A stretch of DNA of 64,000 bases, from contig NZ_BJDG01000015.1 in NCBI RefSeq assembly GCF_005404945.1, positions 1-64,000 of the forward strand. The letters are read 5' to 3'. This DNA is from Lactiplantibacillus pingfangensis. GTDB lineage: Bacteria > Bacillota > Bacilli > Lactobacillales > Lactobacillaceae. Position numbers and translations under genes: made by a program. Numbering within the stretch: the first letter of the stretch is position 1; every line of letters starts with the position of its first letter. The notes under the pieces are model-generated. The model ran no database searches, was not told the DNA's origin, and was given only the letters and a program-made list of their open reading frames with translations. Below are positions 41,581-50,163 of this stretch, one piece after another.

Positions 41581-43872
41581 TTAAGCTAAAGCTTTACTTT
41601 TCAATTCCAAGCTATCTAAAAAATGACCAAAACATTGTTTCAAGAAATGTTCACTGCCATCATCATTCAATTGCCCGAATTCATCGAACTTTGCGCCGGC
41701 TTGTGGCAACATGAATTCATTTCCCGGCAACACTTGCGCATCAACACCTGGCGCATCCAAAATTTGCCGTAAATTCATTTGAGCCCTTACCGTCCCTTGG
41801 ATGCCTAGCGAAGTTCCAACGATCATGACTGGTTTATCCTTGAAGGGATGTTCCGCACAGGATAACCATTCGATGGCACTCTTCAACGCGGCCGGCACCG
41901 CATGATCATATTCGGGTACCCCAATCACAACCCCATCGGCAGCCGCAATTTTGGCACCGAGTGCTTTAACATTGGCCGGTTCATTGTCCAAGTCATCTTC
42001 ATTAAACAAAGGCAACTCGGAAATTTCACAAATATCAAAATTAACTTGGGCGTCAAACAATTCCTTCATCGCATAGAGTAACTTACGATTGTATGACTTT
42101 GACGCGTTGGTACCGACAATCGCCACAATGTTCGCCTCGTTATCGCCTGCAGTTGCTTGGCGTTGCGCATTTGCACTCGCCGCCGCACCAGCCACATAGC
42201 CGGACGAAATACCCCAAGTATTCATCATACTTGGCATCGAATCATGGCCGTTCGCGCCGCCGATGACTTCACCAGCACCAAAGTAATTCGCAACGGGCGT
42301 ATTCTTTGAGGTTAATAATTGTAGATCATGACCATCTGCCGCATAACCACCTAAGGTTGTGGCAAAACGGTCCCGTTGCTCAATCACATAATACTTGTCA
42401 CCAACAAATTGGTGCAGAAACTTTGGATCCCGACCGAATTCACGATCATGACCTTCTGTGACATAACCTTGGTAGTCAGCCACCGTTTTGGCCAATTGCT
42501 GCCCATCAATTCCGGCGGCCGCTGCGACCGTCTGTAAATCACCTTTCGCGAAGATTGGCCGTTTGTCAGGGTCAGCAAAGAAGCCTTGAATTTCTTGGGG
42601 CGTGAAATCATGGAGAATCAATAAATCGTAAACCTTTTTCCACGTCCGTTCATCCATCAATAAGTAAGCAACCTTGTCATCCTGTTTCAAGATGGCATTC
42701 CGAAATGCCGTATAAACGTTAGATTCGTTGACGATTCGTTGACCTTTAGAGTTAACATAAATTGACCCCATGTCCGTCGCTTGTTTCGACGCGTAAGTCG
42801 TTAGCTTAGCCACACCTGGTGCGACTTCAACCCCGTGTGGATAGATCTTATACCAGCCGAGATCATGGGTCTGTAAATCGAGCGCATCATTAAAGTTGTA
42901 AGCATCACCCGTGGAAGTCATTGGTCCATAATAATCGATACCATCACTTTCCGCACCACGCATTTTTTGATTAGCACCATGGCCCCCAGTTGCCAAAACC
43001 ACTGAATGTGCCTTGATTTTGACGGTTTGATCATGTTGCTTACCAATAATCCCAATCACTTGTTGTTGGCGATTTAACATTAAGTTTTCAACTCGCGTGT
43101 CGAGCAGAATCTTCCCACCTGCAGCGGTAAAAGCCTTAGAGACTTTTTGAATAAACTCAAAACTAGACGCCGATGGCAATTCAATCTGTCGATTAATGGA
43201 ATGTTCTGGCGTTTGGGTTTGCGCCTTTTGATAATGCAAATTAGCAAATTGACTAATAAAATCAATAGCTGGCCCAATGTGGTCGACCATTAAATCCGTT
43301 AAAGCTGGATAGTTCGACTCCAAGCTTTCACGGGCCACATCTTGCGCTAACATTTCTGGCGTATCATGGTTATTATCAAAGATTTGTGCTGCCACATCAG
43401 AACCGGTGCCAACCACGTTGGAACCGTTTAAAATAGTTGCACCACCTAAGTAACCATTCTTTTCAACCAAAATCACTTGCTGACCTTCAGCTAAAGCCCG
43501 ACAGCCAGCAACCAATCCAGCCTCACCACCGCCGATGATTAAGACATCTGTTTGATAATGTTGAATCGCGCTAGCTTTAGCCTTTTTAGGTACTGGTGTG
43601 ACAGTAATGCCTTCCTTAGCTACCGCTTGATCCGCTGATTTTAGTAAGGCCTGGGTCATTACCGTGGCACCACTGATGGTATCCACGTTAAATGATTGTT
43701 CCTCAATAATATTATGTTTTAATTTATCAATGACTTGATTAAAAATACCAGACGTTTCGGAATGCTTCAAAATTTTCAAATCTTCAATTTTGTTATCCTG
43801 AATATCTACTTCATAATTAATAATGCCATTGTGGCCCATTGCTTGGCCTTGAATTTGTTGGTTTTTAGTCAA
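41581..43872 (-). CDS. Three-domain flavin reductase (FMN_bind - FAD - NAD(P)H:FMN reductase), putative hydroaromatic/acrylate-type C=C reductase
   Basis: 763 residues from TTG 43872, which has GGAGTG 7 bases ahead and overlaps the apbE stop by 8 bp (TTGACTAA); an upstream ATG lies inside apbE. Domains: FMN_bind (1-90) with the covalent-FMN motif DTISGATVMTQAL (Thr 70); FAD-binding fumarate-reductase-like domain (about 108-560; IIGGGEAGLVAG at 112-122); NAD(P)H-dependent FMN reductase (581-763; VGTNASKSYN). It is a self-contained cytoplasmic enzyme: NAD(P)H to FMN to FAD to an alpha,beta-unsaturated carboxylate. In fumarate reductases the substrate Arg lies in HGxNRLGG; here this stretch reads NGHDSMPS, so fumarate is unlikely. 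Related enzymes reduce acrylate, urocanate or hydroxycinnamate. Its place in a dehydroquinate/shikimate operon suggests shikimate or dehydroshikimate as acceptor (inference). Confidence 0.85.
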   Translation of the reverse strand: MTKNQQIQGQAMGHNGIINYEVDIQDNKIEDLKILKHSETSGIFNQVIDKLKHNIIEEQSFNVDTISGATVMTQALLKSADQAVAKEGITVTPVPKKAKASAIQHYQTDVLIIGGGEAGLVAGCRALAEGQQVILVEKNGYLGGATILNGSNVVGTGSDVAAQIFDNNHDTPEMLAQDVARESLESNYPALTDLMVDHIGPAIDFISQFANLHYQKAQTQTPEHSINRQIELPSASSFEFIQKVSKAFTAAGGKILLDTRVENLMLNRQQQVIGIIGKQHDQTVKIKAHSVVLATGGHGANQKMRGAESDGIDYYGPMTSTGDAYNFNDALDLQTHDLGWYKIYPHGVEVAPGVAKLTTYASKQATDMGSIYVNSKGQRIVNESNVYTAFRNAILKQDDKVAYLLMDERTWKKVYDLLILHDFTPQEIQGFFADPDKRPIFAKGDLQTVAAAAGIDGQQLAKTVADYQGYVTEGHDREFGRDPKFLHQFVGDKYYVIEQRDRFATTLGGYAADGHDLQLLTSKNTPVANYFGAGEVIGGANGHDSMPSMMNTWGISSGYVAGAAASANAQRQATAGDNEANIVAIVGTNASKSYNRKLLYAMKELFDAQVNFDICEISELPLFNEDDLDNEPANVKALGAKIAAADGVVIGVPEYDHAVPAALKSAIEWLSCAEHPFKDKPVMIVGTSLGIQGTVRAQMNLRQILDAPGVDAQVLPGNEFMLPQAGAKFDEFGQLNDDGSEHFLKQCFGHFLDSLELKSKALA

Positions 43873-44815
43873 TTGAATACACTCCTTCGTGTCGCGGCTG
43901 CAAGCCACTGGTGACAAAAATCTGTTGTTGATGATCAATAAAGACGGCTTCCGTTTTTGGATACTGTTCAATTAAAGCAGCGCCAGCTTGGGGTCCTTTA
44001 AAGTAACAAACGGTGGCAAGCACTTCGGCCAATTCTGACTGTTCGGTAATAATCGTGACTTGATCCACTTGATTTTGTACTGGAAACCCAGTTTGCGGAT
44101 CTAAAATATGATGATACATCTGAGTACCGACCTTAAAGTACCGTTCAAAAATACCCGAAGTGACTACCGTCCGTGCTGGCATTTGAACTTGTAAGACTGG
44201 AATACCGCGGATTGCTTGGGGTGCCTGTACACCAACTTCCCAGCGGCCATCGGTGGTCAATGGGTTTGGCCCCAGCAACTTGACGTTACCGCCCAAATTA
44301 ACGATCGCACTAGTCACCCCAGCTTGTTGAAACTGTTGAATCAACTGATCGGCAAAATATCCTTTGGCAATGGCGCCTAAGTCTAGCTGCATCCCGACTT
44401 GTTTCAAGTAAACCGTTTGGGTCGGCGCATCTAAGACGACTTGTGAGTAATCCATCAAGCGTAAGCGGCGCTGAATTTCCGCCGACGATGGCACTTGATC
44501 ACCACCAAAGCCAATCCGCCACAGTTTTACAAGCGGCCCAATGAGGACATTGAAACTGTCACGATGACGTTTGGAATAGTGAAGCGCATCTTGAATCAAG
44601 GAAAACGCGGTCGCACTCACTTGCACTGGTCGAATACCCGCCTGCTGATTGATCGCCATCAATTCCGAATCGGATCGATTCATAGAAAACACTTGATCCA
44701 TCCGCTGCAAATAGTCATAACTCGCTTCAACGAGTGGCTGATTTGGTTCAAACAGGGTTATTGAAATGACGGTGCCCATCATTTGAAACTTAGACACATA
44801 TTTTTTCTGTGACAT
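43865..44815 (-). CDS. FAD:protein FMN transferase (ApbE family)
   Basis: 316 residues. Attaches FMN covalently to Thr or Ser in SGAT-type motifs, consuming FAD. Family signatures: SKFQMMGTVISITLF N-terminus, LDLGAIAKGYFADQLI near 165, VNLGGNVKLLG, TSGIFERYF and HHILDPQTGFPV near 245. There is no signal peptide or lipobox, so unlike the secreted ApbE it acts in the cytoplasm, the same place as the SGAT-bearing reductase encoded next. Overlap of 8 bp with that gene supports this pairing. It is the fourth gene of the five-gene operon. Confidence 0.92.
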   Translation of the reverse strand: MSQKKYVSKFQMMGTVISITLFEPNQPLVEASYDYLQRMDQVFSMNRSDSELMAINQQAGIRPVQVSATAFSLIQDALHYSKRHRDSFNVLIGPLVKLWRIGFGGDQVPSSAEIQRRLRLMDYSQVVLDAPTQTVYLKQVGMQLDLGAIAKGYFADQLIQQFQQAGVTSAIVNLGGNVKLLGPNPLTTDGRWEVGVQAPQAIRGIPVLQVQMPARTVVTSGIFERYFKVGTQMYHHILDPQTGFPVQNQVDQVTIITEQSELAEVLATVCYFKGPQAGAALIEQYPKTEAVFIDHQQQIFVTSGLQPRHEGVYSID

Positions 44816-44840
44816 CGATGGTCACCACCCTTTCATTAAA

Positions 44841-45599
44841 TTAGTCGAGTTTTAAATCTTGTAATTCTGGTCGTAAGTGATCCAAGGCAATTTGGCCGGG
44901 TGCTGATGCCGCGCCAACTGTCGCGAAGGACAAGCAGGAACCAAATACTTCACCAGCAAGCCGGGAAACTTTTCCCAAATCACCCATCGACATCGTAATG
45001 ACCGGTTGGGCTAATTGCTGACGCGCCGTGTTGGTCGCAGTCAGTAAAGTTAAAACATCGTCAACCGATTGCGGCATCACCGCCATCTTGGCAATGTCGG
45101 CGCCAAAGGCCGCCATACTCGTCAAACGGGCAACAATGTCAGCAGCGGCTGGCGTTTTATCGAAATCATGATTACTCATAATGACGACAGCTTTTGCTTG
45201 ATGCGCCGCGGCAACCAGTTGTTTAACAGCAGTTTCATCGTGATAGCGTTCGACATCCAAGGCATCCGTAAAATGACCAGCTAAGACTGCGTCACAAACT
45301 TGGAAGTATGCCGGATCACTCAACACGAGTTCGCCACCCTCACCCTTAGTCCGGAAAGTTGTGAGCAAGGCGATTTCGCCTAGTGCCGCTCGCAATTGTT
45401 GGCCGGTAGCTTGCAACGCAGCTGCATCAGTGACGCCGTCAAAGAAATCAATCCGCCATTCAACTAAATCCGGTTGTGCGGCTTTAATTGGTGCCACGGC
45501 AGCTAAAATCTCAGCCGTTGTTTTCCCGGTAATTGGGACGGCAATTTTGGGCCGTCCGGTTCCTAAATTAAGATTGCGACATTTAACGACTGTTGGCAT
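44841..45599 (-). CDS. aroD: Type I 3-dehydroquinate dehydratase
   Basis: 252 residues from MPTVVKC (AAAGGGG ahead), overlapping the permease stop by 17 bp. Active-site residues visible: Glu 47 and Arg 49 (LVEWRIDFF), Arg 83 (TFRTKGEGG), His 144 (SNHDFDKTP) and Schiff-base Lys 171 (IAKMAVMPQS). Dehydrates 3-dehydroquinate to 3-dehydroshikimate. No other chorismate-pathway genes are beside it, so it looks catabolic (quinate/shikimate use) rather than biosynthetic. It adds to the permease, dehydrogenase and reductase of the same operon. Confidence 0.93.
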   Translation of the reverse strand: MPTVVKCRNLNLGTGRPKIAVPITGKTTAEILAAVAPIKAAQPDLVEWRIDFFDGVTDAAALQATGQQLRAALGEIALLTTFRTKGEGGELVLSDPAYFQVCDAVLAGHFTDALDVERYHDETAVKQLVAAAHQAKAVVIMSNHDFDKTPAAADIVARLTSMAAFGADIAKMAVMPQSVDDVLTLLTATNTARQQLAQPVITMSMGDLGKVSRLAGEVFGSCLSFATVGAASAPGQIALDHLRPELQDLKLD

Positions 45600-46806
45600 G
45601 TTCAACGGCCCCTTTCTGTTTGTTTTGACCAAATAATTGATAATACCGAATCGTAATTAAAACAGCTAATACAAAGCCGATTAAGGCAATAATGACATCG
45701 AATAAGAAGATATTGGCTAAATTACTAGCCATGGTCCCCGTGACCAATGGAATCGTGAACGACGCAATCGAGCCGGCTGTATAAAAGGCGCCGGTAATCG
45801 TCCCTTTACCTTGTGGGAAGAAGGTCGACATCACCGTTAAGCCGAGTTGCATCACGCCACCAGCTGCGGAAAATCCCACAACAAAGGCCATGATTGAACA
45901 AACCAAAGCGGTTGGGAACAAGTACATCAATAGTAACGATAAGAACGAAATCAACGTGTAGACACCTAAAAATTGAATTTCTTTAACCGCCCGTTTCGCT
46001 AATGCGGCTGTCACTAAGACACAGACAATGGAACCAACACTGTAATAACTAATCAATGCTCGTGAACTGGCATCACCCATGCCGGCCACTTTTGTCCCGT
46101 ACTGGCTGAGCCATTGGCTAACCAAATAAAATGTGGCTTGGGAAACGTAGCCATAAAGAATAAACAAGGTCCCATCGAACCATAAATTACCTTTTGACTT
46201 TGGCGCAACTGCTTTTGGTTCATCTGCTTTAGGGGCTGCTTGGTTAGCAACTGGGAATTTGCCAGCAGCTAGCATGAAAATCAAGTTCGCAACTAAAACG
46301 ACAATACATAAGATAAATGACCAACCATACCAATAGTTACCCGCAACTAGAAAACTAACTAACAACGGTAAGCCAAATTGGCCAACAGAAATGAATGCTT
46401 TAATAATGACATTGGCAGTCCCTTTAGATTGTGGAAACATTTCCATTAAAGCGGGATAAGTGCCAGAATCTAAGAATGAGTTGGCAATTCCCGCCAAAAT
46501 TCCAAAAATGTAAGCAACCGCAATCGACGGACTTAAGATAATCCCGCCGAAGAAGAGTAGGTAAGTAATTGTCCCAAGTACGACGAACGGCTTACGGCCA
46601 AACTTGTCCGACAGCCAACCGGAAACCAATAAGACAATCAACCGGCCAATTCCCAATGACGAAATCACAACCGCCACACCACCAGTATTGGTGTGCCACT
46701 GATTTGCCAGTGCATCCATGTTTTGCGCCAAGATAATAACGCCCATCCCATGAATAAAGTAATTTAAATATAAACTAATGGCAGTTGGCATATATTTATT
46801 TTTCAT
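45583..46806 (-). CDS. MFS transporter, likely quinate/shikimate-type permease
   Basis: 407 residues, 12 predicted helices. MFS motif A is GWLSDKFGRKPFVVLG between helices 2 and 3. Helix 5 region LDSGTYPALMEMFPQSKG and helix 10-11 region AAGGVMQLGLTVMSTFFPQGKG are shared almost word for word with the second permease at 48864. GGAGGG precedes the ATG. Lies second in the operon, between the dehydrogenase and dehydratase genes, and overlaps aroD. The substrate is inferred from context: a hydroaromatic acid. Confidence 0.88.
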   Translation of the reverse strand: MKNKYMPTAISLYLNYFIHGMGVIILAQNMDALANQWHTNTGGVAVVISSLGIGRLIVLLVSGWLSDKFGRKPFVVLGTITYLLFFGGIILSPSIAVAYIFGILAGIANSFLDSGTYPALMEMFPQSKGTANVIIKAFISVGQFGLPLLVSFLVAGNYWYGWSFILCIVVLVANLIFMLAAGKFPVANQAAPKADEPKAVAPKSKGNLWFDGTLFILYGYVSQATFYLVSQWLSQYGTKVAGMGDASSRALISYYSVGSIVCVLVTAALAKRAVKEIQFLGVYTLISFLSLLLMYLFPTALVCSIMAFVVGFSAAGGVMQLGLTVMSTFFPQGKGTITGAFYTAGSIASFTIPLVTGTMASNLANIFLFDVIIALIGFVLAVLITIRYYQLFGQNKQKGAVEHANSR

Positions 46807-46832
46807 TGCTGCCCTCCTATGGCTGTCGCTAA

Positions 46833-47717
46833 TTATTTAGCATCTTCATCAAATAAAATGTGGCGAATATAGTCAACCGGCATGTCTTCACCAGTCCAAA
46901 GTTTGAAAGCGGCCGCACCTTGTTCTAGCATCATGCCAAGCCCGTTGAAAACATGTTCCACACCGGCTGCTTTAGCAACTGACATGAGTTTAGTCGTCCG
47001 TGGGGCATAAACCGTGTCAAACACAATCAAATCCTTGCGGAACCAAGTTGGATCATCTACCAAGGTTTCATTTTCCAATGGTTTCATCCCAACACCGGTT
47101 GAATCCGTATAGATGTATGAATCTTGAATTTCAGCTTTGAAATCGTCACGATCTTCTAAGGCATGGAGTGTTGCATGGCAATTAGTCCGTTCATTAATGA
47201 GTTTGACGTTACGTTCAGCATTTTCCCATTCAGCATCGTGTAAGTTAAAGATTGATAAGTCGCTAACACCATCTAAAGCTGCCTGAACCGCAATCGCTGT
47301 GCCAGCACCACCGGCACCTGCCAAAGTCATCTTGTGGCCGCGAATATCTAGTCCTTCGTCAGCTAAAGATTTCATGAAGCCAATCCCATCGGTGGTATAA
47401 CCCGTTAAGACGCCGTCATCATTGACGATCGTGTTCACCGCACCGACCATCTCAGCGGCAGGATCTAATTTATCTAATAGTGGGATGACCTTTTGCTTGT
47501 TAGGCATCGAAATATTTGAGCCCCGCATGTCCAAGGTGCGAATCGATTGAATCGCGGCTGGTAATTTATCGTTACCGACTTCAAACGCTAAGTAAGCGTA
47601 ATTCAACCCTAATTTAGCAAACGCATTGTTATGCATTGTTGGCGACATGGAATGCCGAATCGGATAAGCCATCAAGCCAATTAGTAAAGTATGTCCATCA
47701 ATTCGTTCTGTCATCAT
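46833..47717 (-). CDS. Quinate/shikimate dehydrogenase (YdiB-like AroE family)
   Basis: 294 residues. N-terminal substrate domain LIGLMAYPIRHSMSPTMHNNA. The catalytic Lys 74 is in NISMPNKQKV (the S-M-P-N-K form seen in YdiB, not the N-x-T-x-P-x-K of biosynthetic AroE). Asp 110 is in GYTTDGIGF, with Thr in place of the usual Asn. Rossmann loop TLAGAGGAGTA. It most likely oxidises quinate or shikimate (or reduces the dehydro forms) with NAD(H). First gene of the five-gene operon; AGGAG precedes it. The YdiB-like features support a catabolic role. Confidence 0.9.
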   Translation of the reverse strand: MMTERIDGHTLLIGLMAYPIRHSMSPTMHNNAFAKLGLNYAYLAFEVGNDKLPAAIQSIRTLDMRGSNISMPNKQKVIPLLDKLDPAAEMVGAVNTIVNDDGVLTGYTTDGIGFMKSLADEGLDIRGHKMTLAGAGGAGTAIAVQAALDGVSDLSIFNLHDAEWENAERNVKLINERTNCHATLHALEDRDDFKAEIQDSYIYTDSTGVGMKPLENETLVDDPTWFRKDLIVFDTVYAPRTTKLMSVAKAAGVEHVFNGLGMMLEQGAAAFKLWTGEDMPVDYIRHILFDEDAK

Positions 47718-47859
47718 AATCCACTCCTAAAAAGTTATTTTATTTTTGATTTTGTTACTCAATTCACTTGTCATGTTAGCAAATTGGTTTAATATAATAA
47801 ATAAAGAGTTTTCAATTAATTGATTTAATTATTCTATCAATGGAAGGGGTTACATTAAG

Positions 47860-48789
47860 ATGAACCTACGACACCTAGAATTTTTTAAAGAATTAGCCCG
47901 AACGCAGCACATGGCTAAAGCCGCTGAAAACCTTGGTATCTCGCAACCAACACTCAGCTATGCCATTAAAAAGTTAGAAACTGAACTCGGCGTGCCATTG
48001 TTCGAAGCGGATGGCCGAAATATCAAATTAACTGAGATTGGCGCGGTCTATTTAAAGTATATTACGGCTAGTTTAAATGATTTATCACAAGGTAACGAAC
48101 TGGTTCAAGAACTTATGAATCCTGACACTGGTCATGTCAAATTAGGGTTCACTTACACTTTAGGCCAACAATTGGTTCCTGAGCTGATTGCCAACTTCCA
48201 AGCAAACGCGACTAACCGGGCCATCACTTTTCAACTGGGTCAGGGCAACTCTGCGGATTTAATCCAAGGTTTAGCCGATGATCGGTATGACCTTGTCATG
48301 GCCTCTAATATTGATAAGCTTGGTGACTATGCGACTGAAAACTTGTTTGATTTCATTCCACTAGTGCAACAATCAATTATGGCAGCGGTCTCTAGCCAAC
48401 ATCCGTTAGCCGCTAAACCCAAGCTACATGTCGCAGACTTAGCACCCTATCCCATGATCATGTTCTCACACAATAGTGGGCTACGACCATTGATTGATCA
48501 AATTTTAGCACGGGCCAAGGTCACCCCTCAGATTGCCTACGAAGTCGAGGAAGACTACACGATGGCCGGATTTGTGAGCTACAATTTTGGCGTCGCCCTG
48601 ATGCCCTATTTACCATTGTTAAAACAAAGTAATATCTTATTAAAACCGCTAATTGACCAACCTTTACAGCATCAACTCTACCTGATCGTGAAAAGCAATC
48701 ATTTCACCACACCGTCCGTCCAGCGGTTTCAAGAATTTAGTCGTAGTTACTGTTGGCAGCATTACACCACTCAGGATCGGTTGATCTAA
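47860..48789 (+). CDS. LysR-family regulator of the hydroaromatic operon
   Basis: 309 residues. N-terminal winged HTH MNLRHLEFFKELARTQHMAKAAENLGISQPTLSYAIKKLE (positions 1-40), then a LysR substrate-binding domain (about 88-300) with GHVKLGFTYTLGQQLVPELI. Divergent from the aroE-like gene with 142 bp between start codons, the classic arrangement in which LysR activates its neighbour on binding an intermediate. The intergenic gap is AT-rich with TTTAAT/ATTAAA-type T-N11-A candidates. GGAAGGGG precedes the ATG. Confidence 0.9.
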   Translation: MNLRHLEFFKELARTQHMAKAAENLGISQPTLSYAIKKLETELGVPLFEADGRNIKLTEIGAVYLKYITASLNDLSQGNELVQELMNPDTGHVKLGFTYTLGQQLVPELIANFQANATNRAITFQLGQGNSADLIQGLADDRYDLVMASNIDKLGDYATENLFDFIPLVQQSIMAAVSSQHPLAAKPKLHVADLAPYPMIMFSHNSGLRPLIDQILARAKVTPQIAYEVEEDYTMAGFVSYNFGVALMPYLPLLKQSNILLKPLIDQPLQHQLYLIVKSNHFTTPSVQRFQEFSRSYCWQHYTTQDRLI

Positions 48790-48863: not shown

Positions 48864-50087
48864 TCAAACGTGATCGAGTTTACTCGACCGCTTCGCTGTG
48901 TGTGCGGGAACACGTGATAAATTTAGCACAATCAAACTGCATAAGACGCCAACCGCCGCAATGCCGACGTCGAACCACATAATATTTTGAATACTCTCAA
49001 TGGAGATCCAAGCCGTCACAATTGGAATGGTAAACGACGCTAAGCCACTGGCCGTATAATAAATCCCAGTAATTCGACCTTTTGCATGTGGAAAAACGTC
49101 ACTCATCACAGTCAGCCCAAGCTGCATCACGCCACCTGCAGCGGTACAACCAATGACAAATGAACTAATCAAAGCCGCTGACCAAGTTGGGAGTAACACT
49201 AAAACTAACAGTGCCACTAATGATAAAACGGTATCAACTAACATAAACCAGACCGGCTTTAAGACGCGTTCAACTAACAAAGCAGTCACAATGACTCCTA
49301 AAATTGACCCCACGCTATATACGCTTACTAATAGCCGCGCATGAACTAAATCTAATTTAATCACGTCACTCCCATATTTGGTCAGCCATTGACTCACTAG
49401 GTAAAAAGTCGCCATTGAAATATAGCCAAAAAGTGTTAAAACAACGCCCATGATTAACTGTTTAGACGTTAATTTTACCTTTGAAGTCGCCTGTATCGTT
49501 GTCGTTTTAGCTGCCGTTTGCGTGGACAAAGCAGGAAATTGACGCGCTCGCAACAAAATAAAGTTCAAAACCAATAAGACCACGCAACCGATAAAGGACC
49601 AGCCGTACCACCAGTTTAGGTGATCTAGGCCAGCGACTAGTAGTGGCAATAATAGCTCACCAATCGAGGCAAATGCCTTAATCATAATATTGGCAGTGGC
49701 TTGTCGTTGTGGATAGAGTTCCATCAATGCCGGATAAGTCCCGGAATCTAGGAAAGAATTCGCCATTCCTGCTAAAATTCCGGCACCATAAGCAACCACC
49801 ATATTTGGTGATAAGACAATCCCCACAAAAAACAAGGTATAGGTCAAAATACCCAATTGCACAAATACTTTACGCCCCAACCGATCCGAAAGTGATCCCG
49901 CCAAATACAACACTAATAGGCGGCCAATGCCTAGTGAAGAAATCACCAAAGCAACGCCCGCATCGCTAACTCGCCATTGACGGCTCAAGACCGTCATGTT
50001 CTGTGCTAAAATCACGATTGCCATCCCATGCACTAAATAGTTGAGATAAAGGCAAATCGTCGTCTTAATCCGTTCAGTCTGTGTCAT
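48864..50087 (-). CDS. MFS transporter, paralogue of the operon permease
   Basis: 407 residues from MTQTERIKTTICLYLNYLVHGM (ATG 50087), same length as the permease at 45583 and similar throughout: LYLNYxxHGMxIxILAQNM, ISSLGIGRL, SFLDSGTYPALMEL, AAGGVMQLGLTVMSD. MFS motif A is GSLSDRLGRKVFVQLG. It is probably a duplicated permease for a related hydroaromatic compound. Monocistronic; a near-consensus cre site (50164-50177) lies upstream, so unlike the operon permease it is probably glucose-repressed. AGG lies only weakly upstream of the ATG. Confidence 0.86.
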   Translation of the reverse strand: MTQTERIKTTICLYLNYLVHGMAIVILAQNMTVLSRQWRVSDAGVALVISSLGIGRLLVLYLAGSLSDRLGRKVFVQLGILTYTLFFVGIVLSPNMVVAYGAGILAGMANSFLDSGTYPALMELYPQRQATANIMIKAFASIGELLLPLLVAGLDHLNWWYGWSFIGCVVLLVLNFILLRARQFPALSTQTAAKTTTIQATSKVKLTSKQLIMGVVLTLFGYISMATFYLVSQWLTKYGSDVIKLDLVHARLLVSVYSVGSILGVIVTALLVERVLKPVWFMLVDTVLSLVALLVLVLLPTWSAALISSFVIGCTAAGGVMQLGLTVMSDVFPHAKGRITGIYYTASGLASFTIPIVTAWISIESIQNIMWFDVGIAAVGVLCSLIVLNLSRVPAHTAKRSSKLDHV

Positions 50088-50163
50088 TTGAGGATACCTG
50101 TGCCTTGTTAGATTTGAATTGAGTAACAAAACACTTTGCTCACCTATTAACTAACTATTTAAA

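Follow-up and report, generated by a model that had tools for sequence, protein, structure and literature searches.

A gene cluster of Lactiplantibacillus pingfangensis (assembly GCF_005404945.1, contig NZ_BJDG01000015.1), located at positions 41581 to 48789 of the window, i.e., of the entire stretch of 64,000 nucleotides that was analysed, is in our view quite probably a LysR-controlled operon for the uptake of quinate and shikimate and for their use as electron acceptors. Its minus strand encodes, in this order, a quinate/shikimate dehydrogenase (SDH), a permease of the major facilitator superfamily (MFS_A), a type I 3-dehydroquinate dehydratase (DHQ1), the transferase ApbE and a three-domain flavin reductase (RED), and a gene for a LysR-type regulator is divergently oriented; this arrangement had been described in a first-pass annotation of the DNA and was confirmed by profile searches. 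What was observed is the set of genes, their linkage, the conservation of residues and operators, and the replacement of RED by an unrelated ene-reductase; it is from these sequence data that we infer the substrate, the direction of the reactions, transport, regulation and the physiological use as an electron sink.

In the envisioned pathway, the acids would be imported by MFS_A, and perhaps also by a second permease, MFS_B. SDH would interconvert quinate and 3-dehydroquinate, as well as shikimate and 3-dehydroshikimate, with NAD(P) as the cofactor, and DHQ1 would dehydrate 3-dehydroquinate to 3-dehydroshikimate. The latter compound is a cyclic enone and the product of both SDH and DHQ1; it is the most likely direct substrate of RED, which would reduce the C=C bond of the ring, with shikimate a less likely one. 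Because RED possesses an FMN_red domain of its own and a putative flavinylation site (SGAT70), and because an ApbE gene lies alongside, electrons are likely to travel from NAD(P)H to the flavin mononucleotide (FMN) of the FMN_red domain, to an ApbE-attached covalent FMN, to flavin adenine dinucleotide (FAD) and finally to the substrate. A dehydrogenase would then finish the reduction to dihydroshikimate, or to dihydroxycyclohexane carboxylate where further enzymes exist. On the route from quinate through 3-dehydroquinate, 3-dehydroshikimate and a dihydro-ketone to dihydroshikimate, one NADH would be returned and two would be used, a net yield of one NAD+ per quinate.

A search for RED orthologues covered 398 Lactobacillaceae genomes, and all genome-wide statements made here rest on sequence searches of genomes. 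Sixty genomes pass the threshold (E <= 1e-60), some of them through the FMN_red domain alone, and they represent 14 of the 40 Lactobacillaceae genera sampled. Within 5 kb of an intact RED gene (51 loci), genes for LysR (48/51), SDH (47/51), DHQ1 (45/51), an MFS permease (39/51) and ApbE (28/51) are found; these labels are best BLAST hits, and the LysR and MFS counts take in distant homologues. The possibility, raised in the first-pass annotation, that the reductase is always tied to a different substrate in other genomes was checked, and RED was found near SDH, DHQ1 and LysR, and usually MFS, in nearly every genome that carries it. The genes are ordered LysR<>SDH-MFS-DHQ1-ApbE-RED in Lactiplantibacillus, Secundilactobacillus and Levilactobacillus, LysR<>DHQ1-ApbE-RED-SDH-MFS in Lentilactobacillus and Companilactobacillus, and RED-SDH-DHQ1 in Ligilactobacillus, Tetragenococcus and the Lactobacillus species of bees; other Lactobacillus strains have RED together with LysR<>SDH-MFS-DHQ1. 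In Ligilactobacillus salivarius, the compact gene set resides on the megaplasmid pMP118. Local synteny alone is ruled out as the cause of this linkage, as order, strand and replicon (pMP118) differ between genera. Chance is rejected as well, even when shared ancestry is allowed for: by our estimate, two unlinked genes would lie within 5 kb of each other in well under 1% of genomes of such a size.

When 84,980 species genomes were scanned, RED was recovered solely from Lactobacillaceae, Tetragenococcus and one distant Firmicutes metagenome-assembled genome. This single relative outside the Lactobacillales (L201; 33% identity) was discarded as a member of the group: it is a lipoprotein, has a Phe at the position of Tyr387 of RED, and is encoded without SDH or DHQ1 nearby. 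In one locus of the genus Lactiplantibacillus (L211, genome G010), the galM/beta-glucosidase interval retains only SDH and DHQ1 and is devoid of RED, ApbE, MFS and LysR, apparently after loss of the reductive part.

Of the 54 RED-positive genomes, 21 have no chorismate synthase, and SDH and DHQ1 therefore cannot serve chorismate synthesis in these bacteria. Hence, a purely biosynthetic function of the two enzymes was rejected for RED-positive genomes that lack chorismate synthase.

In genomes without RED, 20 loci with a close relative of the SDH were examined. Three of these hold LysR-SDH-(MFS)-DHQ1 (DHQ1 was not called in one of them) together with an Old Yellow Enzyme (OYE) of about 672 amino acids that is composed of Oxidored_FMN and Pyr_redox_2 domains and matches the BaiCD model at 7e-143, under the cutoff of that model. 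BaiCD is a reductase of 3-oxo-delta4 enones. Of 395 Lactobacillales genomes, 44 encode an OYE homologue. Nineteen neighbourhoods of this gene were inspected, drawn from other Lactobacillales and from three Lactobacillaceae; in 18 of them it sits beside the genes for LysR, SDH and DHQ1, in most cases with an MFS gene as well. OYE thus has the same LysR-SDH-MFS-DHQ1 neighbours as RED and presumably catalyses the same step, but differs from it in fold and in the arrangement of its cofactors. RED was found in none of the 46 OYE-positive genomes tested, with a query that lacked its own positive control, although RED queries detect RED elsewhere. That two unrelated ene-reductases occupy one conserved setting argues strongly that the step they share would be the reduction of a C=C bond in a hydroaromatic acid that SDH and DHQ1 produce. 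The idea of a hydroaromatic reductase, put forward in the first-pass annotation, consequently gains support from this replacement and from the linkage in genomes without chorismate synthase.

The AlphaFold model of RED (mean pLDDT 84.9) has urocanate reductase and flavocytochrome c3 (Fcc3) as its nearest folds and superimposes on 6t86 with a Z score of 39.8 and an rmsd of 2.8 over 444 aligned residues; RED thus belongs to the FAD_binding_2 superfamily. In an alignment that also includes urocanate reductase and ifc3 (1qo8), RED has Y, S, K, T, Y, A, T and S at the positions of the Fcc3 residues H365, S377, E378, R381, R402, H504, H505 and R544, respectively. In the numbering of RED, Y344, K363, T366, Y387, A504 and a Ser take the positions of H365, E378, R381, R402, H504 and R544, and these replacements are conserved among the orthologues. 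All 45 RED proteins compared have Tyr (Y387) at the R402 position, and K363, H346, K356, Y360, R228, H224, D544 and S548 are likewise invariant. The putative covalent FMN acceptor lies in the SGA[T/S] motif (SGAT in the window protein, with T70 as the acceptor), and each of the 45 proteins has a Thr or a Ser there. Three FAD_binding_2 paralogues encoded in the window genome, including an HcrB-like protein, retain R402, H504 and R544.

Judged by these residues, the active site has lost the carboxylate clamp and the acid catalyst of fumarate/urocanate-type reductases and has gained an invariant Tyr, changes that suit a ring activated by a ketone more than a plain unsaturated acid. The argument of the first-pass annotation, in which the hydroaromatic acids were likened to acrylate or cinnamate as acceptors, turned out to be a poor fit, since RED does not possess the Arg/His set that its own-genome HcrB-like paralogue retains. 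On account of the replaced residues, the ketosteroid and cyclohexanone dehydrogenases among the fold neighbours and the BaiCD-like replacing enzyme, we favour 3-dehydroshikimate as the direct substrate, an assignment that we put at an even chance.

Within the same pathway, RED might instead act on shikimate itself, an alpha,beta-unsaturated carboxylate, as the chemistry of the first-pass annotation would suggest; we consider this rather unlikely. Shikimate is yielded by SDH, the invariant residues Lys356, Lys363 and Arg228 could bind its carboxylate, and HcrB-type relatives reduce acrylate side chains (PMC10295242). However, the acid-catalyst Arg and the carboxylate-binding His/Arg residues of the superfamily are missing from RED. 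Moreover, the enzyme that takes its place resembles BaiCD, whose established substrates are enones. A role of RED in the reduction of hydroxycinnamates, or of the caffeoyl part of chlorogenate, with the hydroaromatic genes handling the quinate part only, seems improbable to us, even though chlorogenate is an ester of caffeate and quinate (PMC13101492), so that both parts arrive together, and a related lactobacillar reductase, HcrB, exists; a separate HcrAB-like operon is present in the window genome, and its reductase carries the canonical residues, whereas RED is without the canonical site.

The name of the L. plantarum orthologue in the Protein Data Bank invites a further reading, namely that RED is a fumarate reductase: entry 2lfc, an NMR fragment about 73% identical to RED, was deposited as a fumarate reductase flavoprotein subunit. 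The FAD_binding_2 fold and the nearest structures, urocanate reductase and flavocytochrome c3, agree with this name. Nevertheless, six catalytic or substrate-binding positions are replaced in RED, its score against TIGR01813 (182.4 bits) falls under the cutoff of 285.45, and no link of RED to C4-dicarboxylate genes was seen. The replaced residues and the TIGR01813 score led us to reject this identity, for which we see next to no chance; by its residues RED is not a fumarate reductase, and the name given to 2lfc is probably wrong. Alternatively, SDH, DHQ1 and the permease might channel imported shikimate-pathway acids into the synthesis of aromatic amino acids while RED acts on another compound. 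We deem this unlikely, although the window genome possesses aroC, aroA, tyrA and aroK and yet one SDH, and although SDH-DHQ1 lies inside aromatic biosynthesis operons of RED-less lactobacilli, as described below. Against it stand the RED-positive genomes without chorismate synthase, the exactly matching neighbourhoods of RED and the unrelated ene-reductase, and the position of RED within the same operon, under its candidate operator.

Several observations nevertheless weigh against the use of the operon as an electron sink as outlined above. The window genome does encode a chorismate synthase, the gene for which adjoins EPSP synthase-, TyrA- and AroK-like open reading frames and an MFS gene related to MFS_A. 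The operon SDH is the sole SDH found in this genome, in which two type I dehydroquinases occur; because no other SDH was found although chorismate synthase is present, this enzyme may have a double role and serve biosynthesis as well. Furthermore, SDH-DHQ1 is not catabolic everywhere, given that the pair, along with a permease related to MFS_A, forms part of an aroC-aroA-tyrA-aroK operon in 9 of the 20 RED-less loci (L216, L218, L220, L222, L226-L230), which suggests that these lactobacilli import shikimate-pathway acids in place of full synthesis. In the window genome, a relative of MFS_A adjoins aroC. Nor is the supply of electrons uniform: ApbE is encoded near RED in just 28 of the 51 loci, and some RED orthologues of about 575 amino acids lack the FMN_red domain and, by their sequence, must for this reason depend on a separate NAD(P)H:FMN reductase. 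Strict mutual exclusion of RED and OYE, which held in 46 of 46 OYE-positive genomes, is broken by two Liquorilactobacillus genomes (L110/L163 and L111/L167) in which both genes lie about 1 kb apart. Finally, the choice of the compound whose C=C bond would be reduced draws on residue substitution and on analogy.

A conserved candidate operator, GCTAACATGACAAGTGAATTGAGTAACAA, is situated between the LysR and SDH genes (47752-47780, minus strand); this 29-bp version is present as a single copy in the window genome. Of 37 divergent regions, 23 contain the block AAGTGAATTGAGTAACAA with at most three mismatches (0.015 expected), irrespective of whether SDH or DHQ1 is the first gene, and in most of the regions that have it, the distance between the block and the start of LysR is about 89-91 bp. 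An ATAG-N7-CTAT motif is present in 13 of the 37 regions (0.18 expected) and fits the T-N11-A pattern typical of LysR proteins. The core of the candidate operator recurs, inverted, just upstream of MFS_B with at most four mismatches in 17 of 22 loci (0.1 expected), and in the window it corresponds to a second candidate operator, TTGTTACTCAATTCAAAT, at 50112-50129 on the minus strand. These expectations derive from mononucleotide shuffles, and since the loci are related, the figures show conservation and not independent events. On the basis of this common candidate operator, we include MFS_B in the finding and propose it as a member of the same LysR regulon. Scans for sigma-70 promoters and terminators gave matches at chance level only.

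All genes named for the locus were found at their place and strand between 41581 and 48789; the first-pass annotation was accurate in this regard, while MFS_B (48864-50087, minus strand; 52% identical to MFS_A) lies outside the interval that it had delimited and the start of RED had to be corrected. The open reading frame of RED as first called spans 41581-43971, with Pfam matches to FMN_bind (8.7e-13), FAD_binding_2 (5e-29) and FMN_red (7.4e-37). Comparison with orthologues places the true start at a TTG codon at 43872, a few bases into the end of the ApbE gene, so that RED (41581-43872, minus strand) comprises 763 amino acids. Its domains are FMN_bind (43621-43836, with the putative flavin acceptor T70 encoded at 43663-43665), FAD_binding_2 with the altered active site containing Y387 (42238-43548), and the flavodoxin-fold NAD(P)H:FMN reductase domain FMN_red (41698-42132), all on the minus strand. 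ApbE, the FAD:protein FMN transferase (43865-44815, minus strand; Pfam ApbE 2.7e-79), has no evident signal sequence, in line with the cytoplasmic form that had been proposed; as neither N-terminus shows one, RED and ApbE should both be cytoplasmic.

DHQ1 (44841-45599, minus strand) matches the Pfam type I dehydroquinase family at 3.3e-68 and TIGR01093 at 5.2e-67 (226 bits, cutoff 139); its frame is open to 45632, its start is probably the ATG at 45599, and the catalytic residues H155 and K182, the Schiff-base Lys, are conserved in 61 of 61 proteins. MFS_A, the proposed quinate/shikimate importer (45583-46806, minus strand), matches MFS_1 at 7.3e-35. The YdiB-type SDH (46833-47717, minus strand) was identified through profile models and residues: it matches PRK00258.2-1 (8.9e-158), NF001313 (over the cutoff), the quinate/shikimate dehydrogenase (YdiB) model (1e-93) and the structure 3tnl (2.4e-108), and its catalytic residues K74 and D110 are found in 61 of 62 and 62 of 62 proteins, respectively. 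That it takes both quinate and shikimate, with NAD, is a proposal, the cofactor motif not being diagnostic. The minus-strand genes overlap or are spaced by 25-26 bp, as is characteristic of an operon, and the LysR-type regulator (47860-48789, plus strand) has HTH_1 and LysR_substrate domains.

Additional genes accompany RED in some lineages. In seven Lactobacillus loci, several of them from bees (L164, L171, L174, L190, L194, L196, L197), a block encoding an acyl-CoA dehydrogenase, EtfB, EtfA, a CoA ligase and a thioesterase lies directly upstream of RED, usually together with SDH-DHQ1; the acyl-CoA dehydrogenase is related to acryloyl-CoA reductase and cyclohexane-carbonyl-CoA dehydrogenase, and the block possibly mediates a CoA-dependent reduction of a ring acid or of cinnamates. 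A xylose-isomerase-like TIM-barrel protein and an SDR flank RED on pMP118 (L203:5289-6981) and in about 10-15 other loci of several genera. The former has a weak match (7e-5) to QuiC, a 3-dehydroshikimate dehydratase, and the two proteins are candidates for the loss of a ring hydroxyl and for ketone reduction towards dihydroxycyclohexane carboxylate. In four cases (L130, L131, L152, L184), the RED locus has next to it a second operon, which comprises an MFS gene, two paralogues of SDH (45-50% identity to that of the window) and an SDR; this operon offers candidates for the Whiting and Coggins hydroaromatic dehydrogenase.

Reduction of quinate and shikimate in L. plantarum and L. pastorianus was reportedly described by Whiting and Coggins (1971-1974), whose 1971 paper is cited in PMC8149962, and both lineages carry the RED locus: it is present in S. 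collinoides and S. paracollinoides (synonym L. pastorianus) as well as in Lactiplantibacillus. The statement of the first-pass annotation that the C=C reductase gene is not generally assigned still stands, in that we found no paper that assigns the RED gene, or that reports dihydroshikimate formation by lactobacilli or a 3-dehydroshikimate ene-reductase, in a search whose coverage did not extend to preprints and most subscription journals. Aerobic quinate catabolism (Qui/Qsu) likewise employs a quinate/shikimate dehydrogenase and a dehydroquinase; there, however, 3-dehydroshikimate is dehydrated to protocatechuate and oxidised, whereas the next enzyme of the lactobacillar locus is a reductase.

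HcrB and VprA are validated flavin reductases of L. plantarum (PMC10295242). Like RED, the HcrAB system (HcrB is lp_1425) relies on an NADH-dependent flavin reductase that combines flavin-binding and FMN_red-type domains, is LysR-controlled and deals with plant acids (PMC10295242). RED differs from HcrB in its identity of about 25% to own-genome paralogues, in the missing canonical Arg/His set, in the C-terminal position of FMN_red and in its linkage to SDH and DHQ1 instead of HcrA. It shares with HcrB/CRD-like flavinylated ene-reductases the FMN_bind acceptor with ApbE and, in the window protein, an FMN_red domain on the same chain, but not the canonical Arg at the R402 position. The HcrAB-like operon of the window genome, with a divergent LysR gene, is found at G000:C7:112700-115780 (L128); G000:C44 (L127) encodes one more protein of the FMN_red-FAD_binding_2 type, whose active site is different. 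Flavocytochrome c3 and urocanate reductase have the FAD_binding_2 fold in common with RED (Z 36-40), which, unlike them, has no haem domain, has replaced residues and its own FMN_red domain, and is predicted to be cytoplasmic. The 3-ketosteroid and cyclohexanone dehydrogenases share the superfamily fold (Z 33-34) and act beside a ring ketone, as proposed for RED, but they are about 20% identical to it, desaturate their substrates and lack FMN_bind and FMN_red. For cinnamates, a different route is known from Weissella, which reduces ferulate via CoA (PMC13101492).

We suggest, with doubt and confidence in equal measure, that RED represents a new enzyme class, a flavinylated NADH:3-dehydroshikimate ene-reductase with a redesigned site, that the Lactobacillales solved this step twice (RED and OYE) within one hydroaromatic electron-sink module, and that the extra modules of some lineages may lead to cyclohexane carboxylates. 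The presence of two unrelated ene-reductases at one position of a conserved gene set makes a direct and cheap test possible. If true, the finding would correct the widespread label of fumarate reductase or FAD-dependent oxidoreductase, including that of the solved structure 2lfc, and would supply the missing gene for lactobacillar quinate and shikimate reduction, described some fifty years ago. Coffee, fruit, cider and pollen are rich in quinate, which makes the module relevant to food fermentation and to chlorogenate metabolism in the gut. It also bears on the honey bee, whose gut bacteria deplete pollen quinate (PMC5726620) and include Lactobacillus species that carry the RED cluster.

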